This document shows positions 11,550 through 64,000 of a stretch of 64,000 nucleotides of DNA, one piece after another. The translations under genes were made by a program, and so were the position numbers. Each line of letters starts with the position of its first letter. Within the stretch, counting starts at the first letter, position 1. The notes under the pieces were generated by a model. The model had not been told where the DNA came from and did no database searches. It saw only the letters and a list, made by a program, of their open reading frames with translations. The DNA is taken from positions 186,001-250,000 of the forward strand of contig JAKZMJ010000001.1 of assembly GCA_030491005.1 (NCBI GenBank), read 5' to 3'. The DNA comes from Sulfurospirillum sp. (GTDB lineage Bacteria > Campylobacterota > Campylobacteria > Campylobacterales > Arcobacteraceae).

Positions 11550-12502
11550 TGTTTGGTTTTTTAAAAAAAGATAAAAAAGAAGCAAAAAAAGATATAAATG
11601 AAACTTTAGAAAAAGAGCAAAGTCTTAGTACGAAAAGTTTTTTATCAAAAGCATTATCAAAAACTTTTGATAATATCAAATCAGTTATTCCAGTAAAAAA
11701 ATATAAAATTCCTTTTGATCAAATTGAAGAACTACTAATTCAAGCAGATATGGAATATGAGATTATAGAAAAAGCTATGAACGGTTTAGAGCAAGAAATT
11801 CAAAGAAAACATCTAAGACATAGATTAATTATGTTGTTTGAACATTCTCCAAAAGTAGACTTCTCAAATATGACAAAACCTTTTATAAAATTAATCATTG
11901 GTGTTAATGGTGCAGGTAAGACTACAACTATTGCAAAATTAGCATATAGTTTACTGCAAGATAAACAAACAGTTATTTTAGGTGCTGGTGATACATTTAG
12001 AGCTGCTGCCATTGAACAGTTAAGTGCTTGGGCAACTAAGCTTAATGTTCCTATTATAAAAACCAAGCAAGGGCATGATGCAAGTGCCGTTGCCTACGAT
12101 ACTATTTCTTCTGCTATTGCTAAAAATATTGATAATGTTATCATTGATACAGCAGGAAGATTACAAACTCAAACAAATTTAAATAATGAATTAAAAAAAA
12201 TTGTCAAAGTTTGTAACAAAGCCAAAAAAGACTCACCTATTCAAAAAATATTAATACTTGATGGAACACAAGGCAACTCAGCCATTGCACAAGCTAGAGC
12301 ATTTCATGATATGGTGGGTATTGATGGCATTATTGTTACTAAGTTAGATGGCACAGCAAAAGGTGGTGCTTTATTTTCAATTTCTAATCAGCTTGAACTT
12401 CCTATATTATACTTAGGTATTGGCGAAACACAAGAGGCTTTAATCAAGTTCTCCCCTGATGATTTTGTAGATGCACTATTAGATGAGATTTATCAAGAAT
12501 AA
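11549..12502 (+). CDS. ftsY: Signal recognition particle receptor FtsY
   Basis: GTPase that docks SRP-ribosome complexes at the membrane. The 317-residue protein has a short, highly charged A region (about 1-40) followed by the NG domain: G1 GVNGAGKTTT, GAGDTFRAAA, G3 DTAGR, and TKLDGTAKGG near the C-terminus. The acidic A domain is short compared with E. coli, as in many bacteria. It is followed after 2 bases by the PLP enzyme at 12505. The last 84 bases are repeated at 23211-23294. Confidence 0.97.
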   Translation: MFGFLKKDKKEAKKDINETLEKEQSLSTKSFLSKALSKTFDNIKSVIPVKKYKIPFDQIEELLIQADMEYEIIEKAMNGLEQEIQRKHLRHRLIMLFEHSPKVDFSNMTKPFIKLIIGVNGAGKTTTIAKLAYSLLQDKQTVILGAGDTFRAAAIEQLSAWATKLNVPIIKTKQGHDASAVAYDTISSAIAKNIDNVIIDTAGRLQTQTNLNNELKKIVKVCNKAKKDSPIQKILILDGTQGNSAIAQARAFHDMVGIDGIIVTKLDGTAKGGALFSISNQLELPILYLGIGETQEALIKFSPDDFVDALLDEIYQE

Positions 12503-14056
12503 TTATGCGAAAAACCATATTTAAACATATTAATTTAGGAGAAACCTTACCTATTAATAATGTTCATTCTGTTTCTGTATCTATGCCAAAATTACAAGAT
12601 GTTATTGATTATGAGAAATTAGTTCCTAAGGTACTTGATAAAATAAAAAGTGCCTATCCTCGATTTATGATACACCCATATTTAAAAATACTTGCAAATT
12701 TTATTAAAGATAAATATAATATTCCAAATGATTATGAAGTAGTATTACTAAATTCAAAAGAAGATGTTCAAATATTTAGTAAAACATATTATATTAACAA
12801 TAAAATAGATATCAATGAACCTTTTGGAGTGATTTTACTTATAAAAGATACTTGTCAATTACAAAAAGTATTATCTTTTATTCAGTATATAGGATGTAAT
12901 TTATCTTCAAGATTTGCCGAAGATTATTTGTACAAAAATAAACTAATAAACACTATACAAAAAGAAATAAGTTTAGATAAAAATATAGCAAAAAACTCTT
13001 TGTTAAAATATTTATCATCAATATATGAACAAAAAATTGAAAATATTTGTTTAACTCCTTCTGGAATGAATGCAATTTATTGTGTATTAAAAGCTTTGAA
13101 GAATATTCAAAGAAGAAATTCAAGAAATATTTTTATTCAATTTGGCTGGTTATATTTAGACACCATGAATATTATAAAAGAATTTTATAATGAAAACAAA
13201 ATATTTTATGATATTGATAATCTTGATATCTTAGAAGATTATTTAAAACAAAATGGTTTTAATGTTTGTTCTATTATTACAGAAATACCTACAAATCCTT
13301 TATTACAGTGTGTTGATTTAGAAAGATTAAAACAACTTTGTATTAAATATAATATTCCTTTAATAATAGATTGTACTATTTCAACACCTTTGAATATTGA
13401 TTTTAAAAAATATGCTGATATTTATATTGAATCTTTAACAAAATTTGCCTGTGGAAATGCAGATGTACTAATGGGTTGTTTTATTCTAAATGAAAATTCA
13501 AAAATATCTCATATAAAAAATGAATTTTTCAAACATACTTCTTTGCCATATATAAGAGATATTCAACGCTTAGCTTATGAAATACAAGATTACAAAGTAA
13601 GAATATCGCAAATAAGCTCAAATACAGTAAAACTAATCAAATATCTAAAAAAATGTTCTTATGTTAAAAAAGTTTATCATTGTATGCAAGAAGAGAATAA
13701 AGACAACTATAAAAAACTTATGAGAACCAATAAATCATATTCTGGTCTTATTTCTTTAAGCTTTACAAAAGACTTTAAAAGTGTTTATGATAAATTAAAT
13801 TTTCCAAAAGGTCCTAGTTTGGGTACAAATTTTACACTTCTTATGCCTTATGTTTATCTTGCTCATTATGATTTAATCATTTGTAAAGAAGGTCAAGAAT
13901 TATTAAAAATGAATAATATTCCTATTGATTTATTAAGAGTATCTGTGGGTACTGAAAATATTGATGATATTATTGGTGAATTTAAAAGAATAGAAAATTT
14001 ATTGTAAAATAAGACAATCGTCAAATTGGTGTTTCTTTAGGGTCTAACATTTCTTT
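12419..14056 (+). repeat. Copy 1 of a 1.64 kb direct repeat (ftsY 3' end, PLP gene, hxlR 3' end)
   Basis: This stretch recurs at 23211-24847 in the same direction. In my base-by-base comparison of the coding part I saw two differences, a 1-base deletion and one substitution. On both sides of the repeat the two loci remain recognisably homologous but diverged. Confidence 0.93.
12505..14007 (+). CDS. Cys/Met-metabolism-type PLP enzyme with N-terminal extension
   Basis: A 500-residue protein whose C-terminal 350 residues look like the cystathionine gamma-synthase/lyase fold-type I family. Seen there are LTPSGMNAIYCVLKA (PLP phosphate-binding region), IITEIPTNPLLQ, IIDCTISTPLN (Asp contacting the pyridine ring) and the probable Schiff-base Lys in ESLTKFACG. 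The first 150 residues are an extension not found in MetB or MetC and I do not recognise it. Exact reaction (gamma-synthase, lyase or sulfhydrylase) is not assignable. It begins 2 bases after the ftsY stop without a clear RBS, suggesting coupled translation. A second copy at 23297 is frameshifted. Confidence 0.75.
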   Translation: MRKTIFKHINLGETLPINNVHSVSVSMPKLQDVIDYEKLVPKVLDKIKSAYPRFMIHPYLKILANFIKDKYNIPNDYEVVLLNSKEDVQIFSKTYYINNKIDINEPFGVILLIKDTCQLQKVLSFIQYIGCNLSSRFAEDYLYKNKLINTIQKEISLDKNIAKNSLLKYLSSIYEQKIENICLTPSGMNAIYCVLKALKNIQRRNSRNIFIQFGWLYLDTMNIIKEFYNENKIFYDIDNLDILEDYLKQNGFNVCSIITEIPTNPLLQCVDLERLKQLCIKYNIPLIIDCTISTPLNIDFKKYADIYIESLTKFACGNADVLMGCFILNENSKISHIKNEFFKHTSLPYIRDIQRLAYEIQDYKVRISQISSNTVKLIKYLKKCSYVKKVYHCMQEENKDNYKKLMRTNKSYSGLISLSFTKDFKSVYDKLNFPKGPSLGTNFTLLMPYVYLAHYDLIICKEGQELLKMNNIPIDLLRVSVGTENIDDIIGEFKRIENLL

Positions 14057-14353
14057 ACCCCAATCAAATAACATTTTAAAAATTGGAAAAAGTCTTTTAC
14101 CTTTATTAGTCATAGAATATTCAACTTTTGGAGGAATAGTGGGATATATTTTTCTACTAATAATACCATCATTTTCTAATTCTTTTAAAGTTAGAGAAAG
14201 CATTTTTTGTGATATTTCAGGATACTCTTTTTTTAATTCTCCATATCTTCTTTTTTCTTCAAATAAGTGCCATAAAATCAATCCTTTCCATTTTCCACTT
14301 ATGATGTCAATTGAATATTCAAAAGGACAAATATATTCTTTTTTACATCTCAT
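14021..14353 (-). CDS. HxlR-family transcriptional regulator
   Basis: Winged-helix MarR-like regulator of 110 residues. The family pattern is clear: an N-terminal Cys pair region (CKKEYICPFE), IISGKWKGLILWHLF, RYGELKKEYPEISQKMLSLTLKELE (recognition helix) and wing YPTIPPKVEYSMT. HxlR proteins often sense electrophiles or redox stress through an N-terminal Cys; Cys3 and Cys8 could do so here. It is transcribed divergently from the membrane/nucleotidyltransferase gene at 14475, the usual target arrangement. Its 3' end is repeated, decayed, at 24799-24890, and its promoter region is repeated in inverse orientation near 22835-22945. Confidence 0.93.
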   Translation of the reverse strand: MRCKKEYICPFEYSIDIISGKWKGLILWHLFEEKRRYGELKKEYPEISQKMLSLTLKELENDGIISRKIYPTIPPKVEYSMTNKGKRLFPIFKMLFDWGKEMLDPKETPI

Positions 14354-16019: not shown

Positions 16020-16495
16020 TTTGGTAAACCATTAAGAATTAAAAAAACAATTAGCATCTGGAGAATTAACATCTTTGGATAATATTACTGCAGAGTTTAA
16101 AAACATACTCAAAGAAGTAATACAGACTGCATCACAAAAAGAAATAATAGGTATTTGGATAGGCGAGAATGAAACTAGTAAGTACTGGCTTACTGTTTTA
16201 AATGATATTAAAAAAGAGGTGTTGAAGATGTGCTTACATTTGCAATAGATGGTTTAAATGGATTTAATGAAGAAATCAAAGCCATTTACCCAAAACTAGC
16301 AAATGCGATTTTACGAAGTAAAAAGTTTCCTTGAAAAGTAGAGATATAAAGATGTATAGTCCATCAAATAAGAAGCTCTCTATAGGTTTGTATCTTGGAA
16401 AGATAGAAAAGCAGTTGCAAAAGATTTAAAATCAGTCTATACTGCATTAAGTGAAGAAGATGGTCAAATAGCACTAACAGAGTTTAATGACTTAT
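16020..16495 (+). pseudogene. IS256 transposase, 5' half (internally deleted, frameshifted)
   Basis: Translation gives LASGELTSLDNITAEF, then an abrupt join to the IS256 core EIIGIWIGENETSKYW, which implies loss of a few hundred bases between. After a frameshift near 16215 it continues GVEDVLTFAIDGLNGF. A stop after RSKKFP (16334) is followed by remnants of the CIVHQIRxS region and the KDLKSVYTALSEEDG helix, ending in LTEFNDL. The frame resumes exactly at 21594 with LWGKKYP once the composite transposon and one copy of ACTTAT are removed. Confidence 0.85.
16490..16495 (+). repeat. 6 bp target-site duplication, left copy (ACTTAT)
   Basis: ACTTAT immediately precedes the left end of IS481 copy 1; the same hexamer follows the right end of IS481 copy 2 at 21594-21599. 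Only the outermost flanks match, which marks 16496-21593 as one transposed unit. Confidence 0.85.
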
Positions 16496-17587
16496 TGTCC
16501 AGTTTCACCACGTTATGGTTGCCTAGTTTCATAAATAAGAAAGTGATAGATTAAACAACATAAGTGTAAAATCTTTACAACACATAAGGATTTAAAATAT
16601 GTCACAAACCTATCACTCTAATGCTAGAACAAACCAGCACATAAGAGAAATAATACAGAAATCTAATTTAACAAATGTTGAATTAGCAAATAATTATAAT
16701 CTAAATATTAAAACTATCTCTAAATGGAAAGATAGGGATTTTATTGAAGATAAAAGTTCAAGACCACATAATATAAAAACAACTTTAACATCTTTAGAAA
16801 AAGAGTTAATAAAAGTAGTTAGGACAATGACTTGGATGGAGCTAGATGACTTAACAGATACAATAGTTGATATTATCCCAAATGCAAATAGAAGTAATAT
16901 CTATAGAACTCTAAAAGCCTTTGATATAAATAGAGTCCCACAAGAACAAAAAGAAAAAGCAAAGAAATTTAAAGAATACGAACCTGGATATTTGCATATA
17001 GATGTAACCTATTTACCAAAGTTTGATAAACAAAAGTTTTATCTATTTGTAGCAATAGACAGAGCTACAAGGCTACTATATTACAAAGTATATGAAAACA
17101 AATCATCTAATAATGCAGTTGAATTTCTAAAAGTTTGTAAAGAGTTTTTTCCTTTTTACTTAACTCATATTTTAACAGATAATGGATTGGAATTTACAGA
17201 TAAATGGGCAAGAGGCAAAGGAATTGTAAGTGGTAATCACAAGTTTGATGTAGAATGTAAAGAAGATAGTATAGAACATAGACTAACAGCTCCATATACA
17301 CCACAAACCAATGGAATGGTAGAAAGAGTAAACGGAACTATTAAAAATGCTACAATCAAAGCCCAAGACTATGAAAATATAGATGATGTTAAAAAAGATT
17401 TAAATAAATTTTTGATATACTACAACTTCAATAGAAGACATGGTTCTTTAAGAAAAGAATTAAAAGTGAGAACTCCATTTGATGCAGTTCAAAGTTGGTT
17501 TCAAACGAAGCCTGAAATATTTAAGATTTTACCAGATGTGTTTCAAAATATTGCTTTTGAAATGGTACAACGTGGTGAAACTTGACA
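16496..17587 (+). mobile_element. IS481-family insertion sequence, copy 1
   Basis: Terminal inverted repeats: the left end starts TGTCCAGTTTCACCACGTT; the right end, read inverted, starts TGTCAAGTTTCACCACGTT. One transposase gene fills the 1092 bp. Nearly identical to copy 2 at 20501, so both are recent. Confidence 0.93.
16599..17585 (+). CDS. IS481-family transposase (copy 1)
   Basis: A 328-residue DDE recombinase. An N-terminal helix-turn-helix (about 14-47, LTNVELANNYNLNIKTISKWK) precedes the rve integrase core with D in YLHIDVTYLP, D in ILTDNGLEFTD and E in NGMVERVNGTIK. The C-terminus after the YYNFNRRHGSL motif differs from copy 2 because of a 1-base difference close to the end. RBS AAGGA precedes the ATG. 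The full catalytic triad is present, so it is probably functional. Confidence 0.94.
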   Translation: MSQTYHSNARTNQHIREIIQKSNLTNVELANNYNLNIKTISKWKDRDFIEDKSSRPHNIKTTLTSLEKELIKVVRTMTWMELDDLTDTIVDIIPNANRSNIYRTLKAFDINRVPQEQKEKAKKFKEYEPGYLHIDVTYLPKFDKQKFYLFVAIDRATRLLYYKVYENKSSNNAVEFLKVCKEFFPFYLTHILTDNGLEFTDKWARGKGIVSGNHKFDVECKEDSIEHRLTAPYTPQTNGMVERVNGTIKNATIKAQDYENIDDVKKDLNKFLIYYNFNRRHGSLRKELKVRTPFDAVQSWFQTKPEIFKILPDVFQNIAFEMVQRGET

Positions 17588-17671
17588 ATCCTAAGAGATA
17601 ATATTGTTTATGGTAAGTCTGACCCATTTAATATGGAACAATGGAGTAAAAATAATTTTAAGGAAGAGAGA

Positions 17672-18298
17672 ATGCATAATATAATTAAGAATATTAAAAA
17701 TAAAGGAATTGATAATTTTGATTATCAATTGATATATACAGATAATGAAATTAATAATATTATTAAAATTTGTAAAGAAGTTCCTTTAGAACGAGTAATG
17801 ATAGGAGATGCTAGTGAAAAAAATGATTTATTTGTAGGAAGATTTATGAATGATATTGCTGGTCAAAAACCTTTCTTAGTAAATAACGAATTAGCTAATT
17901 CTATCATGAATATACTTTTAAATAATAAATCTAAAAAAAATTTTTCAAATTTATTTAAAGACAATTATATAATAAGAAGAGTTCAATTAAATAGCATGAG
18001 AAAAAATTCTTTTATAGGATTACATTTAGATACTGATAGTAATCCAGACTATGATTATAATGTAATTATTAACTTAAGTTGTAACTATGAATCAGGGATC
18101 TTTACTTATTATATTAACAACATCCCATATAGTATTCGTCCAAAAAAAAATAGTATAACAATATCAAGGTGTGATATTTTACATGAAGTAAAAAAAGTAG
18201 AATCTGGAGAAAGAATAACATTAGTTTTCTTTTTAAGTAAAAATACAGGTATTAATCAATCAAAGAAGCAGAAGGCTAACTATGCAAACGCAGAATAA
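17672..18298 (+). CDS. 2-oxoglutarate/Fe(II)-dependent oxygenase
   Basis: The open frame reaches back into the IS481 end, but ATG 17672 has a strong Shine-Dalgarno (AAGGAAGAGAG) and gives a complete 208-residue protein. Double-stranded beta-helix signature: His118-x-Asp120 in GLHLDTDS, distal His171 in DILHEVKK, and Arg181 in GERITLVFF to bind 2-oxoglutarate. This resembles prolyl-4-hydroxylase-type small oxygenases that act on amino acids or peptides; the substrate is unknown. It overlaps the EamA transporter gene by 17 bases, a coupled pair. It is cargo of the composite transposon. The fold call is good, the exact subfamily uncertain. Confidence 0.78.
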   Translation: MHNIIKNIKNKGIDNFDYQLIYTDNEINNIIKICKEVPLERVMIGDASEKNDLFVGRFMNDIAGQKPFLVNNELANSIMNILLNNKSKKNFSNLFKDNYIIRRVQLNSMRKNSFIGLHLDTDSNPDYDYNVIINLSCNYESGIFTYYINNIPYSIRPKKNSITISRCDILHEVKKVESGERITLVFFLSKNTGINQSKKQKANYANAE

Positions 18299-19178
18299 AA
18301 CCTTATTATTTAATCCTGAGGTTCTAGGATTCCTTGCAGTTTTTGCATTTTCATTTACACTACCTTTAACAAAGATATTAACAAGCAGTATGAATGCTTA
18401 CCAAATTGGAATTGGAAGAACATTAATTGCCAGTATAGTTGCATTAATATTAGTGATTATTTTAAAATATAATTTACCAAATAAACATCAGATTAAAAGA
18501 TTATTATTGGCTTCACTTGGAATATCTTTTGGTTTTCCTATTTTAGTAGGTATCGGAATGAACTTTGTACCCTCATCTCATGGTTCATTAATGTTGTCTA
18601 TTTTACCTATTTTAACCGCAATATTTGGGAAAATCTATGGTAAAGAAAAACCAACAATAAAATTTTGGTTTTTTTCTTTATTAGGATGTCTAGTAGTTAT
18701 AATATATTCTATATATTCAAATAATATAAAAAATTTATATTATGGAGACATTGCATTATTCTTTGCTGTACTATTTGCTGCCTTTGGTTATGGAATGGGA
18801 GGAATAGTAGCTAAAGAAATTGGTGGTCCAAAAACTATACTTTGGATTTTAGTCCTTTCTTTACCAATTACATTACCTATTAGTATTTATTTATTTTGGG
18901 AATATGATTATAGTGTATTAAATAATCTAGATTTATTTTCTCTTCTCTTTTTAAGTTTAATTAATTCATTATTTGGATTTTTTCTTTGGTATCATGCTTT
19001 AGCAAAAGGTGGTATAATTAAGATATCTCAAATACAACTTTTTCAACCATTTTTAACTTATACTATAGGGATAATAATGCTTTCCGAAACAATTGACTGG
19101 TATATACTTATTCTTAGTATATTAGTTTTGTTTTTAATCCGAGCGATAAGAAAAGAGCCTATAATTAATATTAAATAA
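18282..19178 (+). CDS. EamA/DMT-family transporter
   Basis: A 298-residue inner-membrane protein with about ten hydrophobic segments in two EamA repeats. Seen are the N-terminal repeat with FAFSFTLPLTK and GMNFVPSSHGSLMLSILPILTAIFGKIYGKE, and the C-terminal repeat with LINSLFGFFLWYHALAKGG and LFQPFLTYTIGIIMLSE. Family members export amino acids and other small metabolites. Overlap with the oxygenase gene suggests it handles that enzyme's product or substrate, an inference from coupling. RBS AGAAGG lies inside the oxygenase reading frame. Confidence 0.88.
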   Translation: MQTQNKTLLFNPEVLGFLAVFAFSFTLPLTKILTSSMNAYQIGIGRTLIASIVALILVIILKYNLPNKHQIKRLLLASLGISFGFPILVGIGMNFVPSSHGSLMLSILPILTAIFGKIYGKEKPTIKFWFFSLLGCLVVIIYSIYSNNIKNLYYGDIALFFAVLFAAFGYGMGGIVAKEIGGPKTILWILVLSLPITLPISIYLFWEYDYSVLNNLDLFSLLFLSLINSLFGFFLWYHALAKGGIIKISQIQLFQPFLTYTIGIIMLSETIDWYILILSILVLFLIRAIRKEPIINIK

Positions 19179-19267
19179 TAAATTTGAAGAAAAAAAATTA
19201 TATTACAAAAAATTTAGGTCGTGTACAATAACCTGTTTCAGAATCTAGTAATTTCTAAAATTGAATC

Positions 19268-19832
19268 ATTAATCTAAAAAAGGGTTAATTCCCCGTACCC
19301 TTGGGTCGTTAACAAGTTAGCTATAATAGAGATATGAGAGATGAACATATATATAAAAGTCATAATAAGACTTTACTACTATATCATTTGGTATTTCCAG
19401 CTAAATATAGAAAAAAAGTATTTGATAATAAAATAGATAAAAAACTTAGAGAAGTATGTATTGATATATCTCAAAGATATGAAATTGTATTTGTAGAAAT
19501 TGGTAATGATGAAGATCATGTACATTTTTTAGTTCAAAGTGTACCAACAATATCTGTAACTAAACTAGTAACTACAATAAAAAGTATAACAGCAAGAGAG
19601 ATATTTAAACAATTTCCTCAATTAAAAAAAGAAATGTGGGGTTCAAGTCTTTGGACAAGTGGATATTATGTAAATACAGTTGGACTCTACGCAAGTAAAG
19701 ATACAATTAAAAATTATATTAAAAATCAAGGCTCAAATGAAAAAGAATATGTCAAAATATATGATGGACAATTAAAGTTTGATTTATAGAAAAAGATACC
19801 CCGTACCCTTGGGTCGGTGGAGCATCATTTCA
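19268..19832 (+). mobile_element. IS200/IS605-family element, copy 1
   Basis: The stretch shared with copy 2 runs from about ATTAATCTAAAAAAGGG to GGAGCATCATTT. Both ends carry the imperfect palindrome CCCCGTACCCTTGGGTCG, the subterminal hairpins recognised by Y1 transposases. Only tnpA is present, no tnpB. The element sits inside the composite transposon. Confidence 0.88.
19334..19789 (+). CDS. tnpA: IS200-type Y1 transposase TnpA (copy 1)
   Basis: HUH-superfamily single-strand transposase of 151 residues, normal length for the family. The HUH motif is HVHFLVQ (about 62-68); the catalytic Tyr lies in the segment WTSGYYVNTVGLYAS. A -10 element TATAAT sits at 19322-19327, only seven bases before the ATG, so the mRNA may be leaderless. 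It differs from copy 2 by one residue (Thr versus Ile after SVP). Confidence 0.95.
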   Translation: MRDEHIYKSHNKTLLLYHLVFPAKYRKKVFDNKIDKKLREVCIDISQRYEIVFVEIGNDEDHVHFLVQSVPTISVTKLVTTIKSITAREIFKQFPQLKKEMWGSSLWTSGYYVNTVGLYASKDTIKNYIKNQGSNEKEYVKIYDGQLKFDL

Positions 19833-19835
19833 GGT

Positions 19836-19857
19836 AGTGTAAATTTATATTTACACT
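19836..19857. terminator. Hairpin downstream of the relaxase fragment
   Basis: AGTGTAAAT (19836-19844) pairs perfectly with ATTTACACT (19849-19857) around a 4-base loop, just past the relaxase stop on the minus strand. There is no clear T-run. The sequence also resembles the IS256 end at 15988, so it may be a terminator or an IS relic. Confidence 0.4.
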
Positions 19858-20088
19858 CTCTCTATCGACATACTTCGGCTCTTTCTCGTTGCCTATGTAT
19901 TTTAGGTTTAGCTACTATCTGATTATCTTTCTCTAGTTTAGGGATACGCTCCTCAACTATCTTACATCTACCCAATAACTTTTTATTAATAGGCTGATTC
20001 TCTAAAAACTTATCTATTTCTATCTTGGTTTCTCTCGTAATATTTGACTTAAATGATTTATCAAGAACTTTTCTAACCTTATTTATAA

Positions 20089-20376
20089 TTATTTCTCTTG
20101 TATCTCGATATAGTTCTTTAAGTCTATTTCCAATTCTTGAAAGTCTATTAATTGGTCTTGCATGGTCTGCAACTTTTGCCAAATTAACTCTTGATTGTTC
20201 GATAAGCTTTTGTTGTTCTCCTCGAATTTGTCCAGCTCGTTCTTGAAGCTCTGTGCCGTCTTTTCTAAGTGTTTGATAAACTCTGATTCTTGTTTGTCTA
20301 ATCTCTGCAAAAGTTCTATGTTTAACTTTTCGCTCGTTTGTAATTCTTGCGATAATTGATTCTCTAGTGCTGTCAT
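20089..20376 (-). CDS. MbeD/MobD-like coiled-coil protein nested in the relaxase gene
   Basis: A 95-residue, strongly heptad-like protein starting MTALENQLSQELQ, similar in style to the short MbeD/MobD mobilization accessories of ColE1-type plasmids. It starts directly after the stop codon of the preceding gene fragment, with GGGGAAATAA upstream as a Shine-Dalgarno. It is entirely within the relaxase fragment in another frame. Both frames look protein-like, as expected for real overlapping genes. Confidence 0.6.
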   Translation of the reverse strand: MTALENQLSQELQTSEKLNIELLQRLDKQESEFIKHLEKTAQSFKNELDKFEENNKSLSNNQELIWQKLQTMQDQLIDFQELEIDLKNYIEIQEK

Positions 20377-20500
20377 TTATTTCCCCTTTATTTCCCAAAA
20401 ATAAAATGTCGTGTTTGCTTCCTCTTGGTATTGAACTGTTATTGTAAAGTATGTCACTATTGCTATTACTGATATTGTTCCTATCACTCCCATTACTAAC
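20377..20500 (-). pseudogene. 3' end of an MbeB/MobB-like gene, cut by IS481
   Basis: Forty codons are open from the IS481 junction: a hydrophobic segment (VMGVIGTISVIAIVTYFTI) followed by a short polar tail ending EIKGK, with the stop directly before the nested coiled-coil gene. A C-terminal membrane segment fits MbeB-type proteins. Too short for sequence-based proof. Confidence 0.45.
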
Positions 20501-21593
20501 TGTCCAGTTTCACCACGTTATGGTTGCCTAGTTTCATAAATAAGAAAGTGATAGATTAAACAACATAAGTGTAAAATCTTTACAACACATAAGGATTTAA
20601 AATATGTCACAAACCTATCACTCTAATGCTAGAACAAACCAGCACATAAGAGAAATAATACAGAAATCTAATTTAACAAATGTTGAATTAGCAAATAATT
20701 ATAATCTAAATATTAAAACTATCTCTAAATGGAAAGATAGGGATTTTATTGAAGATAAAAGTTCAAGACCACATAATATAAAAACAACTTTAACATCTTT
20801 AGAAAAAGAGTTAATAAAAGTAGTTAGGACAATGACTTGGATGGAACTAGATGACCTAGTAGATACAATGGTTGATATTATCCCAAATGCAAATAGAAGT
20901 AATATCTATAGAACTCTAAAAGCATTTGATATAAATAGAGTCCCACAAGAACAAAAAGAAAAAGCAAAGAAATTTAAAGAATACGAACCTGGATATTTGC
21001 ATATAGATGTAACCTATTTACCAAAGTTTGATAAACAAAAGTTTTATCTATTTGTAGCAATAGACAGAGCTACAAGGCTACTATATTACAAAGTATATGA
21101 AAACAAATCATCTAATAATGCAGTTGAATTTCTAAAAGTTTGTAAAGAGTTTTTTCCTTTTTACTTAACTCATATTTTAACAGATAATGGATTGGAATTT
21201 ACAGATAAATGGGCAAGAGGCAAAGGAATTGTAAGTGGTAATCACAAGTTTGATGTAGAATGTAAAGAAGATAGTATAGAACATAGACTAACAGCTCCAT
21301 ATACACCACAAACCAATGGAATGGTAGAAAGAGTAAACGGAACTATTAAAAATGCTACAATCAAAGCCCAAGACTATGAAAATATAGATGATGTTAAAAA
21401 AGATTTAAATAAATTTTTGATATACTACAACTTCAATAGAAGACATGGTTCTTTAAGAAAAGAATTGAAAGTCAGAACTCCATTTAATGCAGTTCAGAGT
21501 TGGTTTCAAACGAAACCTGAAATATTTAAGATTTTACCAGATGTGTTTGAAAGATATTGTTTTTGGAATGGTACAACGTGGTGAAACTTGACA
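20501..21593 (+). mobile_element. IS481-family insertion sequence, copy 2
   Basis: Same terminal repeats and orientation as copy 1, with 103 bases before the transposase in both. 1093 bp because of one extra base near the right end. Right-hand member of the composite transposon; followed by the second ACTTAT at 21594. Confidence 0.93.
20604..21584 (+). CDS. IS481-family transposase (copy 2)
   Basis: A 326-residue DDE transposase identical to copy 1 except for a few substitutions (for example LVDTM versus LTDTI near residue 86) and a different last stretch after PDVF caused by a 1-base difference. The catalytic D, D, E are intact. Either copy could drive movement of the whole unit. Confidence 0.94.
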   Translation: MSQTYHSNARTNQHIREIIQKSNLTNVELANNYNLNIKTISKWKDRDFIEDKSSRPHNIKTTLTSLEKELIKVVRTMTWMELDDLVDTMVDIIPNANRSNIYRTLKAFDINRVPQEQKEKAKKFKEYEPGYLHIDVTYLPKFDKQKFYLFVAIDRATRLLYYKVYENKSSNNAVEFLKVCKEFFPFYLTHILTDNGLEFTDKWARGKGIVSGNHKFDVECKEDSIEHRLTAPYTPQTNGMVERVNGTIKNATIKAQDYENIDDVKKDLNKFLIYYNFNRRHGSLRKELKVRTPFNAVQSWFQTKPEIFKILPDVFERYCFWNGTTW

Positions 21594-21886
21594 ACTTATG
21601 GGGTAAAAAGTATCCAAATATTACTGTTTCTTGGACAAACCACTGGAATGAATTAGCTACTTTTTTTAAATATCCTCAATCCGTTAGAACTTTAATTTAT
21701 ACCATAAATCAATAGAATCACTAAATGCCACTATAAAACGAAAGACAAAATCTAAAGGTTCATTTCCTACAGTTGAATCAGCTTTTAAACTATTATATCT
21801 ATCAATTCAACAGCAACAATTAAAATGGGAGGCAAGTAGAGTTAGAGGCTGGAATGAAATTTATCCTCAACGAAGTCATATTTTTT
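21594..21886 (+). pseudogene. IS256 transposase, 3' half
   Basis: Begins with the second ACTTAT and reads LWGKKYPNITVSWTNHW, ELATFFKYPQSVRTLIYTIN, then after a frameshift IESLNATIKRKTKSKGSF and SAFKLLYLSIQQQQLKWE, ending RGWNEIYPQRSHIF. This is the IS256 C-terminal region with the catalytic Glu segment (IESLN). It completes the 5' half at 16020-16495. Confidence 0.88.
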
Positions 21887-22013
21887 AGAGAAATTGTGTC
21901 AAAATACGAGAAGTAATTAAAAGAAACTGGTGGGTTTACACAGTTTATTTTACACTCTCACAGTTTATTTTACACTCTCATAAATAAATAAGGGAGTGTT
22001 AGAATACCAAGTC

Positions 22014-23039: not shown

Positions 23040-23294
23040 AAACAAGAAGAAAAAATGTCTATTTTGTGAAAATAAAAATGATAAAAAAAAACCAAATAAA
23101 GAATTATTAAAAACTTTTGATAATATTAAAACAATCATTCCTGTAAAAAACATAAAATTCCTTTTGAACAAATAGAGGAGCTATTAATTCAAGCAGATAT
23201 GGAATATAAAATTGGCGAAACACAAGAGGCTTTAATCAAGTTCTCCCCTGATGATTTTGTAGATGCACTATTAGATGAGATTTATCAAGAATAA
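23040..23294 (+). pseudogene. ftsY remnant (diverged 5' piece joined to an identical 3' end)
   Basis: About 23097-23210 matches codons near the start of the ftsY NG domain (IPVKK-IKFPF, EELLIQADMEYE), roughly 80 % alike and containing a frameshift. It then jumps to the last 84 bases of ftsY, identical to 12419-12502. The G1 to G4 GTPase motifs are deleted, so it is nonfunctional. It forms the left flank of repeat copy 2. Confidence 0.88.
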
Positions 23295-24847
23295 TTATGC
23301 GAAAAACCATATTTAAACATATTAATTTAGGAGAAACCTTACCTATTAATAATGTTCATTCTGTTTCTGTATCTATGCCAAAATTACAAGATGTTATTGA
23401 TTATGAGAAATTAGTTCCTAAGGTACTTGATAAAATAAAAAGTGCCTATCCTCGATTTATGATACACCCATATTTAAAAATACTTGCAAATTTTATTAAA
23501 GATAAATATAATATTCCAAATGATTATGAAGTAGTATTACTAAATTCAAAAGAAGATGTTCAAATATTTAGTAAAACATATTATATTAACAATAAAATAG
23601 ATATCAATGAACCTTTTGGAGTGATTTTACTTATAAAAGATACTTGTCAATTACAAAAAGTATTATCTTTTATTCAGTATATAGGATGTAATTTATCTTC
23701 AAGATTTGCCGAAGATTATTTGTACAAAAATAAACTAATAAACACTATACAAAAAGAAATAAGTTTAGATAAAAATATAGCAAAAAACTCTTTGTTAAAA
23801 TATTTATCATCAATATATGAACAAAAAATTGAAAATATTTGTTTAACTCCTTCTGGAATGAATGCAATTTATTGTGTATTAAAAGCTTTGAAGAATATTC
23901 AAAGAAGAAATTCAAGAAATATTTTTATTCAATTTGGCTGGTTATTTTAGACACCATGAATATTATAAAAGAATTTTATAATGAAAACAAAATATTTTAT
24001 GATATTGATAATCTTGATATCTTAGAAGATTATTTAAAACAAAATGGTTTTAATGTTTGTTCTATTATTACAGAAATACCTACAAATCCTTTATTACAGT
24101 GTGTTGATTTAGAAAGATTAAAACAACTTTGTATTAAATATAATATTCCTTTAATAATAGATTGTACTATTTCAACACCTTTGAATATTGATTTTAAAAA
24201 ATATGCTGATATTTATATTGAATCTTTAACAAAATTTGCCTGTGGAAATGCAGATGTACTAATGGGTTGTTTTATTCTAAATGAAAATTCAAAAATATCT
24301 CATATAAAAAATGAATTTTTCAAACATACTTCTTTGCCATATATAAGAGATATTCAACGCTTAGCTTATGAAATACAAGATTACAAAGTAAGAATATCGC
24401 AAATAAGCTCAAATACAGTAAAACTAATCAAATATCTAAAAAAATGTTCTTATGTTAAAAAAGTTTATCATTGTATGCAAGAAGAGAATAAAGACAACTA
24501 TAAAAAACTTATGAGAACCAATAAATCATATTCTGGTCTTATTTCTTTAATCTTTACAAAAGACTTTAAAAGTGTTTATGATAAATTAAATTTTCCAAAA
24601 GGTCCTAGTTTGGGTACAAATTTTACACTTCTTATGCCTTATGTTTATCTTGCTCATTATGATTTAATCATTTGTAAAGAAGGTCAAGAATTATTAAAAA
24701 TGAATAATATTCCTATTGATTTATTAAGAGTATCTGTGGGTACTGAAAATATTGATGATATTATTGGTGAATTTAAAAGAATAGAAAATTTATTGTAAAA
24801 TAAGACAATCGTCAAATTGGTGTTTCTTTAGGGTCTAACATTTCTTT
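23211..24847 (+). repeat. Copy 2 of the 1.64 kb direct repeat
   Basis: Matches 12419-14056 with an offset of 10792 bases, changing to 10791 after a 1-base deletion near 23946. A substitution at 24551 changes Ser to Ile in the product. Left flank: diverged ftsY. Right flank: diverged hxlR 3' end. Confidence 0.93.
23297..24798 (+). pseudogene. Frameshifted second copy of the Cys/Met-type PLP enzyme gene
   Basis: Same start and stop as the gene at 12505 but one A is missing in GGTTATTTTAG (near 23946), so the frame breaks after residue 216 (FIQFGWLF). The remainder, including the Schiff-base Lys segment ESLTKFACG, is readable in another frame from about 23950. Otherwise only one residue differs. 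The break is recent; a short PLP-domain protein could still be made from an internal start, but an active full-length enzyme could not. Confidence 0.9.
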
Positions 24848-24890
24848 TCCCAAGCAAATAACATTTTAAAATTGAAAAAAGTCTTTTAGC
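24799..24890 (-). pseudogene. Remnant of the hxlR 3' end
   Basis: Matches 14008-14100, identical to about 24847 and then diverged with several small deletions (CAAGCAAATAACATTTTAAAATTG versus the intact version). About 25 codons of the C-terminus remain. Marks the right edge of the duplicated locus. Confidence 0.8.
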
Positions 24891-24900
24891 TTAAAAACTA

Positions 24901-24969: not shown

Positions 24970-25872
24970 ATGACTTGTAATTTTATTGGAGTATATCCAG
25001 CAGTAACAACAAAGTTTAACTCAAATGACGAGGTAGATTATGATGCTTGTATGAAAGGCGTTCAAGCACAATTAGATGCAGGAGTTCATGGTATCATTTT
25101 AGGTGGGACATTAGGAGAAGCTAGTACTTTAAGTGCATTAGAAAAAACTACACTTTTAGAAACTACAGTTAAGTATGTAAATGGTGCAGTTGTTGTATTA
25201 AACATAGCAGAACAAACAACCAAAGATGCTATACAAGTAGCAATTAAAGCTAAAGCTTCAGGAGCTTCAGGGCTTATGCTTTTACCTCCCATGCGATATG
25301 CAAGTGATGATAAAGAAACTCTTACTTATTTTAAAGCAATAGCAGATGCAACTAATTTACCAATTATGATATATAATAATCCAGTTGATTATAAAGTTGA
25401 AGTTACACTTGATATGTTTGAAGAGTTAAAATCTTGCCCTACAATACAAGCTGTAAAAGAAACTACTAGAAAAATCTCAAATGTTACGAAGATGATAAGT
25501 AGATTTGGAGATAGATTTAAAATAATGTGTGGAGTTGATACTTTAGGTTGTGAAGCTCTTATGATGGGGGCTCATGGTTGGGTTGCTGGTCTTGTTTGTG
25601 CATTTCCAAAAGAAACAGTTGCTATTTATGAATTAATAAAACAAAATAGACACGCCGAAGCATTAGAGATTTATAGATGGTTTTTACCATTATTAGAACT
25701 TGACATTAATACAAAATTAGTGCAAAACATAAAGTTAGCAGAAAGTGCTGTTGGACTTGGAAATGAGTATGTTAGAGAACCAAGACTTCCATTATACGGA
25801 AAAGAAAGAGCTTGTGTCCAAGCTATTATAGATACAGGTATAAAAAATAGACCAACACTGCCAAAACTATAG
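24970..25872 (+). CDS. DapA/NAL-family lyase, probable 1-pyrroline-4-hydroxy-2-carboxylate deaminase
   Basis: TIM-barrel class I aldolase-type enzyme of 300 residues. Seen are the N-terminal VYPAVTTKF, GTLGEASTLS, the Tyr in PIMIYNNPVDY and the Schiff-base Lys in IQAVKETTRK. On fold alone it could be dihydrodipicolinate synthase or another lyase. The following 2-oxoglutarate semialdehyde dehydrogenase, 4-hydroxyproline epimerase and D-amino-acid dehydrogenase point to deamination of 1-pyrroline-4-hydroxy-2-carboxylate to 2-oxoglutarate semialdehyde. First gene of the island, RBS AAAAAGGA. The specific activity is inferred from context. Confidence 0.8.
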   Translation: MTCNFIGVYPAVTTKFNSNDEVDYDACMKGVQAQLDAGVHGIILGGTLGEASTLSALEKTTLLETTVKYVNGAVVVLNIAEQTTKDAIQVAIKAKASGASGLMLLPPMRYASDDKETLTYFKAIADATNLPIMIYNNPVDYKVEVTLDMFEELKSCPTIQAVKETTRKISNVTKMISRFGDRFKIMCGVDTLGCEALMMGAHGWVAGLVCAFPKETVAIYELIKQNRHAEALEIYRWFLPLLELDINTKLVQNIKLAESAVGLGNEYVREPRLPLYGKERACVQAIIDTGIKNRPTLPKL

Positions 25873-25924
25873 AACATAAATTAAAGAAGAGAAAAATATA
25901 AAAATATAGAACAAAGGATAAAAA

Positions 25925-27508
25925 TTGAGTATTCATGGTAAAAATTTTATAGGAAACAAGCTTAGTGCTACTGGTGATAAAAGTAGTAAGATTTATGATA
26001 TAAACAGTGGAAATGCACTTGATGGTGATTTTTATCATGCTACAAGTTATGAGGTAAATACTGCGTTGCAATTAGCAAACAAAGCTTTTATTGTATATAA
26101 ACAAAAAACACAAAATCAAAGAGCAGATTTTTTAGATGCAATTGCAGATGAAATTATGAACTTAGGAGATGAGCTTATTCTTAGAACTATGAGTGAATCA
26201 AATCTTCCACGACCACGAATTGAAGGAGAGAGAGGCAGAACCATGGGTCAAATAAAGATGTTTGCTACATTATTGAGAGATGGCTCTTGGGTTGAAGCTT
26301 CTATAGATACTGCATTACCAAATAGAACTCCCTTAGCAAGAAATGATTTAAGAAAAATGTTACGACCTTTAGGAATAGTTAGTGTTTTTGAAGCAAGTAA
26401 TTTTCCTTTGGCTTTTGCTTGTGCAGGTGGAGATACTGCCTCAGCACTAGCAGCAGGTTGCCCTGTAATTGTAAAAGCACATAGTTCTCATAGTGGAACT
26501 TCTGAGCTAATTGCAAGTGCAATTATAAAAGCAGTAAAAAAATGTGATATGCCAAGTGGAACATTTTGTATGGTTCATGGTAGTGGTAGAAGTGTAGGGC
26601 AACAAATAGTAATGGATGAGAGGGTTAAAGCTGTAGGATTTACAGGTTCAACACAAGGGGGAATGAACTTATTTAATATTGCAAATAAAAGAAAAACTCC
26701 TATTCCTGTGTTTGCAGAAATGGGAAGTATTAATCCTTGTGTATTTTTACCTTCTTCTTTAGAAGATACTAAAAAATTAGCTTCCATGTATGCGTTTTCT
26801 ATTACTTTAGGAGTAGGGCAGTTTTGTACAAACCCAGGACTTATACTAGCTATTAAAGGTGCTAAATTAGAAGAATTTAAAAGTGATTTAAAAAAAGAGA
26901 TTGAAGCTTCAAGTCCAGCTATTATGCTTTCAAAAAGTATTCAAGAATCATATGAAGAAAATAAAAATAAAGCTATTGAACAAGATGGAATTATCTTGTT
27001 AGCCCAAGCAACACAAGAAAATACATCTTCTCAAGGTAGAGCTGTTTTTACAAGTGTTGATGCAGAAGTATTTATACAAAATAATAAACTTCAAGAAGAA
27101 GTTTTTGGACCTTATTGTTTATTAGTAGAATGTAAAGATATAAAAGAATTAAATGAAGCCATATCTTGTTTAGATGGACAATTAACAGCCACGGTTATGG
27201 GTTCAAATAGCGAAATTGTTGAACATATTAATCTAATATCTAATTTAGAGAACAAATGTGGAAGAATATTATTTAATTCTGTTCCAACTGGTGTTGAAGT
27301 ATGCCATTCTATGCAACACGGGGGTCCATTTCCAGCTTCAACTGATTCGCGATTTACTTCTGTTGGTACGGGCGCTATTAAAAGATTTGTTCGTCCTGTT
27401 TGTTTTCAAGACTGCCCAAGTGAGATTTTACCACAAGAGCTTAAAGATGAAAATCCTCTAAATATTTTTAGAATTCTAAACGGTGAGAATACAAAGAATA
27501 GCGTATGA
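25925..27508 (+). CDS. 2-oxoglutarate semialdehyde dehydrogenase (ALDH family)
   Basis: A 527-residue NAD(P)-dependent aldehyde dehydrogenase, the length typical of the long KGSA dehydrogenase group. Motifs: FEASNFPLAFACAGGDTASALAAG (coenzyme loop), FTGSTQGG, Glu in AEMGSINP and catalytic Cys in GVGQFCTNPG. It oxidises 2-oxoglutarate semialdehyde to 2-oxoglutarate, the last step of 4-hydroxyproline breakdown. Translation begins with TTG at 25925, with AGGA upstream at normal spacing; no in-frame ATG precedes the conserved region. Its stop overlaps the next start by 4 bases (ATGA). Confidence 0.87.
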   Translation: MSIHGKNFIGNKLSATGDKSSKIYDINSGNALDGDFYHATSYEVNTALQLANKAFIVYKQKTQNQRADFLDAIADEIMNLGDELILRTMSESNLPRPRIEGERGRTMGQIKMFATLLRDGSWVEASIDTALPNRTPLARNDLRKMLRPLGIVSVFEASNFPLAFACAGGDTASALAAGCPVIVKAHSSHSGTSELIASAIIKAVKKCDMPSGTFCMVHGSGRSVGQQIVMDERVKAVGFTGSTQGGMNLFNIANKRKTPIPVFAEMGSINPCVFLPSSLEDTKKLASMYAFSITLGVGQFCTNPGLILAIKGAKLEEFKSDLKKEIEASSPAIMLSKSIQESYEENKNKAIEQDGIILLAQATQENTSSQGRAVFTSVDAEVFIQNNKLQEEVFGPYCLLVECKDIKELNEAISCLDGQLTATVMGSNSEIVEHINLISNLENKCGRILFNSVPTGVEVCHSMQHGGPFPASTDSRFTSVGTGAIKRFVRPVCFQDCPSEILPQELKDENPLNIFRILNGENTKNSV

Positions 27509-28437
27509 ACTATATAGATGCTAAAACAATAAATGAAGTTTTAGATTATCCTTCATTAATAGAAGCTTTAAGACAAGCTTTTATTAGTGATATTAAAGTA
27601 CCACCAAGGCATCATCATGATTTTAAAAATCCAAAAGAAGGTATTGACTCTACTTTATTATTAATGCCTGCATGGGAAGAAAGTGAAGCATTAGGAGTTA
27701 AAATTGTAACAGTTAGTCCTAATAATGCTAAATACGATTTACCATCAATTCAAGGATTATATCTTTTATTTGATGCACAAAAAGGTGGTATTGAAGCTTT
27801 AATGGACGGAAAAGCATTAACAGCTAAACGAACAGCAGCAGCTTCTGCCTTAGCTAGTAGTTATTTATCAAGAAAAAATTCAAGCTCTATGCTTATGGTT
27901 GGAACTGGAGCTTTAAGTATAGAGTTAATAAAAGCACACTCATGTGTACGAAATATCAAAGATGTATATATATGGGGTAGAAATAAAAATAAAGCTTTAA
28001 AAATAGTAGAGAGCTTAAAAAATGATTTTAATATAAAAGCAGTTTCTAGTATAGAAGATGTTATTTCAAAGGTAGACATAATCTCTTGTGCTACATTAAG
28101 TGCTACACCTTTACTTTTTGGAAAAGATTTAAAAGCAGGTCAACATTTTGATTTAGTAGGTGCTTATAAACCTAATATGAGAGAAGCAAATGATGACTTA
28201 ATAAAAAAAGTTGATATTTTTATAGATACGCAAATGGCTACAAAAGAAACAGGAGATATTAAAATACCTTTAGATAAAGGCATTATAAGCTTAGAAGATA
28301 TTCAAGCTGATTTATTTGATTTGTGTAGAGGTTTACATAAAGGTAGACAAAATAGTGAACAAATTACATTATTTAAATCAGTTGGACATGGCTTAGAAGA
28401 TTTAGCAGCTGCTAAGTTAGTAAAAGCAAAGATATAA
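27505..28437 (+). CDS. Ornithine cyclodeaminase/mu-crystallin family protein, probable pyrroline-2-carboxylate reductase
   Basis: A 310-residue Rossmann-fold protein with the family's PPRHHHDF, GVKIVTVSPNN, LTAKRTAAASALASSYL, nucleotide-binding LMVGTGALS and HFDLVGAYKPNMREA. In hydroxyproline clusters, members of this family reduce 1-pyrroline-2-carboxylate to L-proline, the step after trans-3-hydroxyproline dehydratase (35009). A true ornithine cyclodeaminase is the alternative. Translationally coupled to the KGSA dehydrogenase. Confidence 0.82.
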   Translation: MNYIDAKTINEVLDYPSLIEALRQAFISDIKVPPRHHHDFKNPKEGIDSTLLLMPAWEESEALGVKIVTVSPNNAKYDLPSIQGLYLLFDAQKGGIEALMDGKALTAKRTAAASALASSYLSRKNSSSMLMVGTGALSIELIKAHSCVRNIKDVYIWGRNKNKALKIVESLKNDFNIKAVSSIEDVISKVDIISCATLSATPLLFGKDLKAGQHFDLVGAYKPNMREANDDLIKKVDIFIDTQMATKETGDIKIPLDKGIISLEDIQADLFDLCRGLHKGRQNSEQITLFKSVGHGLEDLAAAKLVKAKI

Positions 28438-28500
28438 ATAAACATATAACATATAACATATATAATTAGGCGAAGATGAAGATGAAGTTTAGGAGAAAAT

Positions 28501-29505
28501 ATGTCTTGTAAAACATTTTTTTGTGTAGATGCACATACTTGTGGTAATCCAGTTAGAGTAGTCGTTGGTGGTGCTCCTTTGTTAAAAGGTTCTAATATGA
28601 GTGAAAAAAGACAGCACTTTTTAAAAGAGTTCGATTGGATTAGAACAGGGCTTATGTTTGAACCACGAGGTCATGATATGATGAGTGGAACTATAATATT
28701 CCAACCATCAAGTGATGATTTTGATGTAAGTATATTATTTATAGAAACAAGTGGTTGTTTACCTATGTGTGGACATGGAACTATTGGAACAGTTACAGTG
28801 TTAATAGAAAAAGAGATAGTTAGCCCTAAAACAGAAGGAATACTTCGTATTGAAACACCAGCAGGATTAGTTATTGCAACATATAAAAGGGATGATAAAA
28901 ATAGAGTTAAATCTGTAAAAATAGTAAATGTTCCTTCTTTTTTACACTCAAGTAATCTTGAAGTTACATCATCTATTTTAGGAAAACTTAGAGTTGATGT
29001 AGCTTATGGTGGAAACTTTTATGCCATTGTTGATTACCAAGAAAATTTTTCTGGCATTCAAGATTTTACAGCTTCTCAATTAATTACAATGAGTAATGAA
29101 TTAAGAGATAAATTAAATAAACAATATTCTTTCGTCCACCCTTTAAATAAAACAATTTGTGGTTTAAGCCATATTGAATGGTCAGGAGATACTATTTCTA
29201 AAACATCAACTGCTAGAAATGCAGTTTTTTATGGAAGTAAAGCAATAGATAGATCACCTTGTGGCACAGGCACATCAGCTCGTATGGCACAGTGGTATAC
29301 AAAAGGAAAATTAAAAAAAGGTGATACTTTTATTCATGAAAGTTATATAGGTTCTATTTTTAAAGGTCTTATTGAAGATGAGGTAAAAATAGGAACTTAT
29401 GATGGAATTATTCCATCCATTGAGGGTTGGGCAAAAATTACAGGATTAAATACCATTACTATTGATGATGATGATCCTTATGCCCACGGTTTTGTAGTTG
29501 TATAA
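28501..29505 (+). CDS. 4-hydroxyproline 2-epimerase (proline racemase family)
   Basis: Cofactor-free epimerase of 334 residues. Both catalytic cysteines are present: Cys90 in LPMCGHGTIG and Cys254 in DRSPCGTGTSA. The Cys/Cys pair separates racemases and epimerases from the Cys/Thr dehydratases of the family, one of which is at 35009. In this setting it converts trans-4-hydroxy-L-proline to cis-4-hydroxy-D-proline, the substrate of the dehydrogenase at 29732. Proline racemase is less likely given the neighbours. RBS AGGAGAA. Confidence 0.9.
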   Translation: MSCKTFFCVDAHTCGNPVRVVVGGAPLLKGSNMSEKRQHFLKEFDWIRTGLMFEPRGHDMMSGTIIFQPSSDDFDVSILFIETSGCLPMCGHGTIGTVTVLIEKEIVSPKTEGILRIETPAGLVIATYKRDDKNRVKSVKIVNVPSFLHSSNLEVTSSILGKLRVDVAYGGNFYAIVDYQENFSGIQDFTASQLITMSNELRDKLNKQYSFVHPLNKTICGLSHIEWSGDTISKTSTARNAVFYGSKAIDRSPCGTGTSARMAQWYTKGKLKKGDTFIHESYIGSIFKGLIEDEVKIGTYDGIIPSIEGWAKITGLNTITIDDDDPYAHGFVVV

Positions 29506-29646
29506 GTTAAAATATAATTTTAGACATTTTGTTAAAATTAAAATATAACTTTTATATAACTTTAATATTATTTATGGAATAGTATTAAAGAAAAATTAGT
29601 ACTACTTTTTGTAATACTAATATTTATTTATAAAGAGAGTTAGAAT

Positions 29647-29739
29647 ATGAAACATAGTATACATATAAATTTACATACTAACTTAGAGATTAATTTTAAG
29701 ATTAACTCATACATTAATTACTTGGATTTTTATGAGTAA
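29647..29739 (+). CDS. Possible 30-residue leader ORF overlapping the dehydrogenase start
   Basis: ATG at 29647, preceded by AAAGAGAG, opens a 30-codon frame (starts MKHSIHINLHTN) that ends with TAA 3 bases inside the next gene, overlapping it by 8 bases. The dehydrogenase has no strong RBS of its own, so the small ORF could couple its translation. It resembles nothing I know and may be chance. Confidence 0.3.
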   Translation: MKHSIHINLHTNLEINFKINSYINYLDFYE

Positions 29740-30979
29740 AATCGCAATTATTGGTGGTGGTATTATTGGACTTTGTAGTGCTTATTATTTACATAAAAGT
29801 GGTCATGAAGTTTGTATTTTTGATTCAAATGAATTAGGAAAGCAGTGTTCATATGGAAATGCTGGTTTACTTGTACCTAGTCATTTTGAAACTCTAGCAA
29901 ATCCAAGTATTTTAAAAAAAGGTTTAATGTGGATGTTAAATCCTAATTCGCCATTTTTTTTAAAACCACGACTTGATATGGATTTATTAAAATGGATTAT
30001 AAAATTTAGTTCATTTTGTACGAATAAACATGTACAAAACAATCAACATTTTTTAAGAGATATAAACTTATATAGTTTGGATTTATATAAAGATTTATTA
30101 AATAATAGTGACTTAGATTTTACTTTAAATCAAAATGGTCTTCTAATGTTATGTCAAAAAGAATCTACTTTACAAGATGAAGAAAGAGCTGTGCAAAATG
30201 CAAATAAATTAGGTCTAAAGGCTAAAATATTAAATGTAGAAGAAATAAAAAAACTCGAACCAAATGCTTCTTTTAATGCTATAGGTGCTTCATATTTTAA
30301 AGATGACTCTACTATACAGCCTTATGATTTTATGAATAGTATTAAAAAATATTTATTAAAGAATAATGTTAAAATTTATGAAAATTGTAAAATACAAAAC
30401 TTTATTTTAAAAAATAATCAAATAAAATCTATAATAACAAATGAAAATGAAAAATATGAAGCAGATGAATTCGTTTTAAGTTCTGGAATTTTTTCTACTA
30501 AATTGGCGAATAAATTAAATTTAAATCTTTTAATGCAAGCAGGAAAAGGTTTTTCTTTTACCGTTCCTAAAAATGATGCTTTAAATTTTAAAACTCCTAT
30601 GATTTTAGTAGAACAAAAAATCGCAATTACTCCTTATGATTCTTATATAAGATTTGGTGGGACTATGATGATTTGTGGAAACGATTTATCAATAAATCAA
30701 AGAAGAATTAATAATATAAGAAAATATTCAAATAATTATATAAATAATTTAAATATACAACAAGAAGATATGAATGACTTATGGGCAGGTTTAAGACCTT
30801 GTTCACCTGATGGGCTTCCTTATATTGGAAAAGCAAAGATATCAAATCTAGTTGTTGCAAGTGGACATGCTATGATGGGGGTTTCACTAGGACCTGCAAG
30901 TGGAAAAATTGTAAGTGATTTAATAAATGAAAAGAAAACACAAATAAATATAAAAAGAATGACTTTATATAGATTTTAA
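29732..30979 (+). CDS. FAD-dependent D-amino-acid dehydrogenase (DadA-like), probable D-hydroxyproline dehydrogenase
   Basis: A 415-residue DAO-superfamily flavoprotein with the dinucleotide-binding IIGGGIIGLCSAYYL at the N-terminus and the C-terminal WAGLRPCSPDGLPYIG and ASGHAMMGVSLGPASGK typical of DadA. It feeds electrons to the respiratory chain. Within this island it is expected to oxidise cis-4-hydroxy-D-proline to 1-pyrroline-4-hydroxy-2-carboxylate; D-alanine or D-proline are alternatives. The 226-base gap before it carries only the small leader ORF. Confidence 0.85.
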   Translation: MSKIAIIGGGIIGLCSAYYLHKSGHEVCIFDSNELGKQCSYGNAGLLVPSHFETLANPSILKKGLMWMLNPNSPFFLKPRLDMDLLKWIIKFSSFCTNKHVQNNQHFLRDINLYSLDLYKDLLNNSDLDFTLNQNGLLMLCQKESTLQDEERAVQNANKLGLKAKILNVEEIKKLEPNASFNAIGASYFKDDSTIQPYDFMNSIKKYLLKNNVKIYENCKIQNFILKNNQIKSIITNENEKYEADEFVLSSGIFSTKLANKLNLNLLMQAGKGFSFTVPKNDALNFKTPMILVEQKIAITPYDSYIRFGGTMMICGNDLSINQRRINNIRKYSNNYINNLNIQQEDMNDLWAGLRPCSPDGLPYIGKAKISNLVVASGHAMMGVSLGPASGKIVSDLINEKKTQINIKRMTLYRF

Positions 30980-31101
30980 TATTATTTATATAAACTAAAA
31001 CAATAAAAATAAATTCAAATAAGGAGGGTTCAAAATAATAATAAACACATTAAAGATAAGAAGAAAATATAAACAAAAAAAATTTAAAATTGGAGAAACA
31101 A

Positions 31102-31923: not shown

Positions 31924-31926
31924 ATT

Positions 31927-31956
31927 TGTATTCAAGGCTCTTAAGCCTTGAATACA
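31927..31956 (+). promoter_or_regulatory. Intercistronic stem-loop between binding protein and permease
   Basis: TGTATTCAAGGC (31927-31938) pairs perfectly with GCCTTGAATACA (31945-31956) around a 6-base loop. No T-run follows, so this looks like an mRNA-stabilising or partially attenuating hairpin, a common device for making more binding protein than permease. Confidence 0.65.
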
Positions 31957-31978
31957 TACAATAACATAAGGATTATAT

Positions 31979-32650: not shown

Positions 32651-32652
32651 TT

Positions 32653-34097: not shown

Positions 34098-34101
34098 TTT
34101 T

Positions 34102-34986: not shown

Positions 34987-35008
34987 TGTATTTTAGGAGT
35001 AAATAAAA

Positions 35009-63303: not shown

Positions 63304-63370
63304 ATTAATCTAAAAAAGGGTTAATTCCCCGTACCCTTGGGTCGCTAAAAAAGTTAGCTATAATAGAGAT

Positions 63371-63891: not shown

Positions 63892-64000
63892 AAAAAGATA
63901 CCCCATACCCTTGGGTCGGTGGAGCATCATTTACACTTAAAATAATATTGTCAATAGACATGAAAATTTTGGATTAAGTAGTGATAACATGCTTGTTATT

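Follow-up and report, generated by a model that had tools for sequence, protein, structure and literature searches.

Two IS481-family elements in direct orientation enclose 2.9 kb of DNA within the remnant of an IS256 transposase gene in a Sulfurospirillum genome, and a 6-bp duplication of the IS256 sequence is present only at the outer ends of the resulting 5,098-bp unit. This arrangement is likely a composite (compound) transposon that moved as a unit into the IS256. The window, meaning the whole stretch of DNA analysed, is 64,000 nt long (C1:186001-250000), and the survey of IS481 flanks covered the whole genome of 2.69 Mb in 33 contigs. The features that define the unit and its target are as follows, in window coordinates:

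16033-16489, strand +, 5' part of the IS256 remnant, from alignment to the intact IS256 L076; internal deletion and frameshifts
16490-16495, no strand, left copy of the 6-bp target duplication ACTTAT, read from the sequence; single copy at the uninterrupted G050 site
16496-17587, strand +, left IS481-family element, 1092 bp; TGT...ACA ends, set by comparison with other copies
16599-17585, strand +, left IS481 transposase ORF, 328 aa
20501-21593, strand +, right IS481-family element, 1093 bp
20604-21584, strand +, right IS481 transposase ORF, 326 aa
21594-21599, no strand, right copy of the 6-bp target duplication ACTTAT, read from the sequence
21600-21906, strand +, 3' part of the IS256 remnant, from alignment to L076

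Two intact IS481 copies bound the unit

The left and right elements differ in 16 columns of a 1093-column alignment (98.4-98.6% identity), and in each of them TGTCCAGTTTCACCACGTT opens and AACGTGGTGAAACTTGACA closes the element. By far the top match of the transposase was the NCBIfam model transpos_IS481 (E=1.9e-60), at 204.8 bits and under that model's equivalog cutoff of 224; Pfam rve and rve_3 domains were also found. The 21-nt terminal arms of the left copy are 95% complementary, and the TGT...ACA termini recur on the other full copies in the genome. With an rve-type DDE transposase, TGT...ACA ends and a 6-bp duplication, the elements belong to the IS481 family. Both transposase frames are open and both copies have intact terminal repeats. 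The unit has at least one apparently intact transposase gene and apparently intact outer ends, as a composite transposon should.

The unit occupies a single IS256 target

As the initial annotation had proposed, ACTTAT flanks the two direct copies only at their outer ends, and on the inner side ATCCTA (starting at 17588) and ACTAAC (ending at 20500) agree neither with each other nor with ACTTAT. An uninterrupted IS256 of this sequence, which that annotation had suggested looking for in related genomes, is present in a genome of the same family (G050): the joined flanks GAGTTTAATGACTTATGGGGTAAAAAG align to its GAATTTAATGACATATGGGGTAAAAAA with no gap at 87% DNA identity, and a 67-aa stretch over the join is a 96% match to its transposase. 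The G050 element holds the hexamer once (as GACATAT). Since the uninterrupted IS256 aligns gaplessly over the joined flanks with one copy of the hexamer, ACTTAT is a true 6-bp target duplication belonging to the 5,098-bp unit as a whole, which occupies a formerly continuous single target; the duplication is confined to the outer ends, as expected of a composite transposon. The unit had originally been drawn to 21599, and although its 5.1-kb size stands, it ends at 21593, since 21594-21599 is the second target copy.

Removing the unit restores the local IS256 frame, as had been claimed, but what it restores is a remnant rather than an intact gene. Relative to the intact IS256 L076 (405-aa ORF from its ATG), the alignment, read by eye, shows about 450 bp missing, a stretch of about 40 bp without counterpart and about four single-base indels. 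The host IS256 is a broken remnant, a predicted pseudogene with no working gene, and no other copy of it was found in the genome. At the end of the IS256, CACAGTTTATTTTACACTCT is tandemly repeated (21937-21980).

Outer duplication against the genome-wide flank survey

The genome holds 29 IS481 matches, representing approximately 17 to 20 full or once-full copies. An exact 6-bp duplication (ATTATC, GTATAT, TATACT, ATATAG, ATTAGT or ACTATT) flanks six copies, two of which are broken by other elements; a 7-bp duplication, ACTTATT, flanks copy L007, and the flanks of one further copy agree at 5 of 6 positions. Six base pairs is the commonest target duplication length among IS481 members (PMC10045372). 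Ten copies, including both of those bounding the unit, have no matching flank pair of their own, which amounts to about half of the copies with both flanks readable. When the left flanks of these ten were paired with their right flanks, the adjacent pair at the unit gave the one exact 6-mer match in 100 pairings, at a chance of about 0.003 per pairing. Two further observations concern the flanks. The L007 duplication contains the hexamer targeted by the unit, and L007 is the only other full-length IS481 with the 3' variant of the right copy; the right flank begins with CTT in six of the ten copies without a duplication (L005, L009/L028, L011, L012, L018 and L019).

A frequency of about one half indicates that rearrangement at IS481 copies is common in this genome, so the mismatched inner flanks are weak evidence when taken alone. 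Neither of the two findings named at the outset as contradicting a composite, a separate duplication for each of the two IS481 copies or the cargo at this site without IS481, was encountered within the genome.

Cargo of the unit

The DNA between the two elements (17588-20500) contains the following features:

17582-18298, strand +, 2OG-Fe(II) oxygenase, 238 aa; Pfam 2OG-FeII_Oxy_3 E=4.6e-7, PDB 6n1f E=8e-33
18282-19178, strand +, EamA-family (DMT) transporter, 298 aa; Pfam EamA E=1.2e-25
19266-19829, strand +, IS200-type element nested in the cargo; Y1 transposase ORF 19334-19789, Pfam Y1_Tnp E=1.6e-38
19862-20500, strand -, ColE1/MbeA-type relaxase, C-terminal part; frame stays open as far as the IS481 end, which truncates it
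20089-20376, strand -, coiled-coil ORF overlapping the relaxase frame, 95 aa

The mobilization-type cargo reported earlier was thus borne out as a ColE1/MbeA-type relaxase tail accompanied by an oxygenase and an EamA transporter. The relaxase frame is open from 20509 and is truncated by the right IS481. A Pfam search of this piece gave no usable match, and its identity rests on family genomes, three of which contain matching open frames of 498-518 aa. Two of these three match NCBIfam MbeA with E=1.9e-60 and 3.1e-57 (the latter L103), below the curated cutoff, and the cargo piece is 36% identical to the L103 relaxase over 83 aa. An overlapping ORF arrangement like that of the coiled-coil ORF also occurs at L102 and L103. 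Truncation of the relaxase gene by the right IS481 fits capture from a mobilizable plasmid, and the cargo donor was probably a plasmid; no replication gene was recognised in the cargo.

Apart from the IS200, the cargo is single-copy in the genome. Relatives of the oxygenase were absent from 103 other family genomes and from about 396 others sampled from the class, so this gene is likely imported. Searches of plasmid records with the unit, the relaxase piece and the oxygenase returned no close match, and the matches to the EamA transporter in those records are generic. The IS200 element has about ten more near-identical full or nearly full copies in the genome, plus fragments, and is probably a later arrival within the unit. 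A near-identical IS200 copy lies at the end of the window (63303-63932), where it matches in two pieces.

A possible TTG start for the oxygenase, that of the listed frame, overlaps the stop codon of the left transposase (17582-17585); in turn, the frame of EamA begins before the oxygenase ends. The oxygenase may therefore be translationally coupled to the left transposase, although initiation at an internal ATG is equally possible.

Surroundings and searches for the unit elsewhere

The IS256 remnant and the composite unit both lie within a segment of about 9 kb that has a 1.68-kb direct repeat (12419-14103 and 23211-24892; 99.5%) on its two sides; the repeat comprises the end of ftsY and an aminotransferase-like gene. 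A diverged ftsY fragment (87%) lies just ahead of the second repeat copy, at 23098-23207. This 9-kb segment looks like an integrated island. Beyond it, at 24970-36070, a run of genes resembles, by eye, hydroxyproline/proline catabolism with an amino-acid ABC transporter.

Neither the genome nor any of the searched collections yielded the unit a second time, so that the same IS481-cargo-IS481 unit sought elsewhere on the suggestion of the initial annotation was not recovered, and movement as a unit was never observed. No relative has the locus in a form without the unit or otherwise, and the one further genome of the genus has neither an IS256 match nor the cargo nor the neighbouring membrane protein. 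Viral contigs gave no match, genome contigs gave nothing beyond Sulfurovum fragments of IS481 transposase, and a class-wide search gave partial IS481 matches only. Weak DNA matches with E of about 1e-4 to 1e-7 were judged to be AT-rich chance matches and set aside.

Discussion

Transposition as a unit offers the simplest account, since one event explains everything. Two intact IS481 elements would have come to flank a piece of an imported segment, probably derived from a mobilizable plasmid and carrying the oxygenase, the EamA transporter and the relaxase tail. The transposase, acting at the outermost TGT and ACA ends, would then have inserted the 5.1-kb unit in the IS256 and duplicated 6 bp of target, and we infer that this movement occurred in one transposition event. 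The haplotypes of the left and right IS481 are each common to other copies in the genome, so the two look like distinct pre-existing copies and not like twins of one replicative cointegrate.

The account that competes most seriously, which we regard as plausible but clearly the less probable, is stepwise homologous recombination, in which a single IS481 inserted in the IS256, making the ACTTAT duplication, and a circle of cargo with one IS481 later crossed in. It predicts the same footprint, IS-cargo-IS with an outer-only duplication; accordingly, of the composite transposon first proposed here, the anatomy, the outer duplication and the IS256 target stand, while transposition as a unit is inseparable here from integration of a circle. 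Copies of IS481 whose flanks do not match are roughly as frequent in this genome as those whose flanks do, and copies L005 and L012, on different contigs, have 860 bp in common on the right side and are unlike on the left, both of which are in keeping with recombination. (The shared 860 bp lies inside another transposase-like ORF.) Precedents exist for rearrangement at elements of this family: in Paracoccus yeei an inversion flanked by IS481-family copies has been described (PMC6209633), and in Pseudomonas fluorescens SBW25 an IS481-family element moved without a new duplication amid a large rearrangement (PMC11708052). The right copy is moreover a mosaic, L002-like in its 5' half and L007-like at its 3' end, and the 5' half of the left copy has the haplotype of L007, which is the pattern expected from a crossover. 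To tell transposition from recombination, we swapped the two copies at all breakpoints. A swap at about position 370 brought them nearer to other copies (sum 16 to 12) and gave an L007-like resident, but the gain was equal with L010, L012 or L014, as with every copy that has this 5' haplotype, and is thus unspecific. In our judgement the crossover pattern weighs about twofold at most toward recombination. Against that route, no replication gene was recognised in the cargo, which would require the circle to be an excised segment and not a plasmid.

Replicative cointegration by one IS481 in the manner of IS26, duplicating the IS while fusing the cargo into the target, would also yield directly repeated copies around a cargo, and structures of the IS26 type bounded by direct repeats are well known (cited in PMC11047700). 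Copies made in this way would start out identical, yet the two here differ at 16 positions in haplotype blocks common to other copies. Later gene conversion could blur such differences; even so, the shared blocks disfavour cointegration, and we consider it improbable. We hold it more improbable still that the unit is an artefact in which IS481 repeats joined unrelated contigs. Multicopy, near-identical repeats in a 33-contig draft do invite misassembly, and a false cargo segment between the two copies is conceivable, but the outer flanks rebuild one contiguous IS256 with one hexamer, as a chance misjoin would not, and the two copies carry distinct variants.

Composite transposons as such have long been known, and the unit, taken as a composite transposon, is ordinary in kind and well preserved in form. 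Class I composite transposons such as ISApl1-mcr-1-ISApl1 (Tn6330) likewise consist of two copies of one IS around a cargo and have an outer-only target duplication as their standard signature (PMC5821093); the present unit differs in its IS481-family IS, in its metabolic, transport and relaxase cargo and in that its mobility is presumed. That IS481 composite transposons are rarely described, as claimed in the initial annotation, is plausible, and no composite of the homotypic IS481-IS481 type that has an outer duplication came to light in the open-access papers searched. In TnRErm46 of Rhodococcus equi (ISRe46), an IS481-family transposase does move passenger genes, with multiple insertions observed, but in its description the transposon forms one element that has its own ends and a single IS481-family transposase, without an IS-cargo-IS arrangement (PMC6794481). 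Tn5564 of Corynebacterium also links a cargo to an IS481-family element, IS5564 being listed in that family; its cargo is resistance, and it is described as bounded by an IS5564 (PMC8304765, PMC9973851). The carbaryl lower-pathway transposon of Pseudomonas C5pp resembles the unit in carrying catabolic genes, in being reported as composite and in having an IS481-family element on one side, and differs in its two non-identical IS borders, similar to ISPa1635 and IS481 (PMC5141477).

Direct repeats of one IS around a cargo are also the form of IS26 pseudo-compound transposons. Those arise by cointegration, which leaves identical copies. We rejected an assignment to this type on the 16 differences and the outer duplication of a single target.

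The unit adds a well-preserved IS481-family composite whose target site can be checked in an uninterrupted relative. It would also be a case in which an IS family usually reported from single insertions or unit transposons brought plasmid genes into a larger replicon, and it illustrates that the flanks of a single IS pair need to be judged in light of how often IS copies in that genome are rearranged. Quite tentatively, and with less confidence than we attach to the composite itself, the full combination may be a homotypic IS481-IS481 composite with a clean duplication, which took up plasmid DNA bearing a relaxase and holds an oxygenase/transporter pair of foreign origin, its first cargo gene placed for possible coupling to the transposase. 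If so, IS481 would serve metabolic genes of this lineage as a vehicle and also as a platform for their expression.
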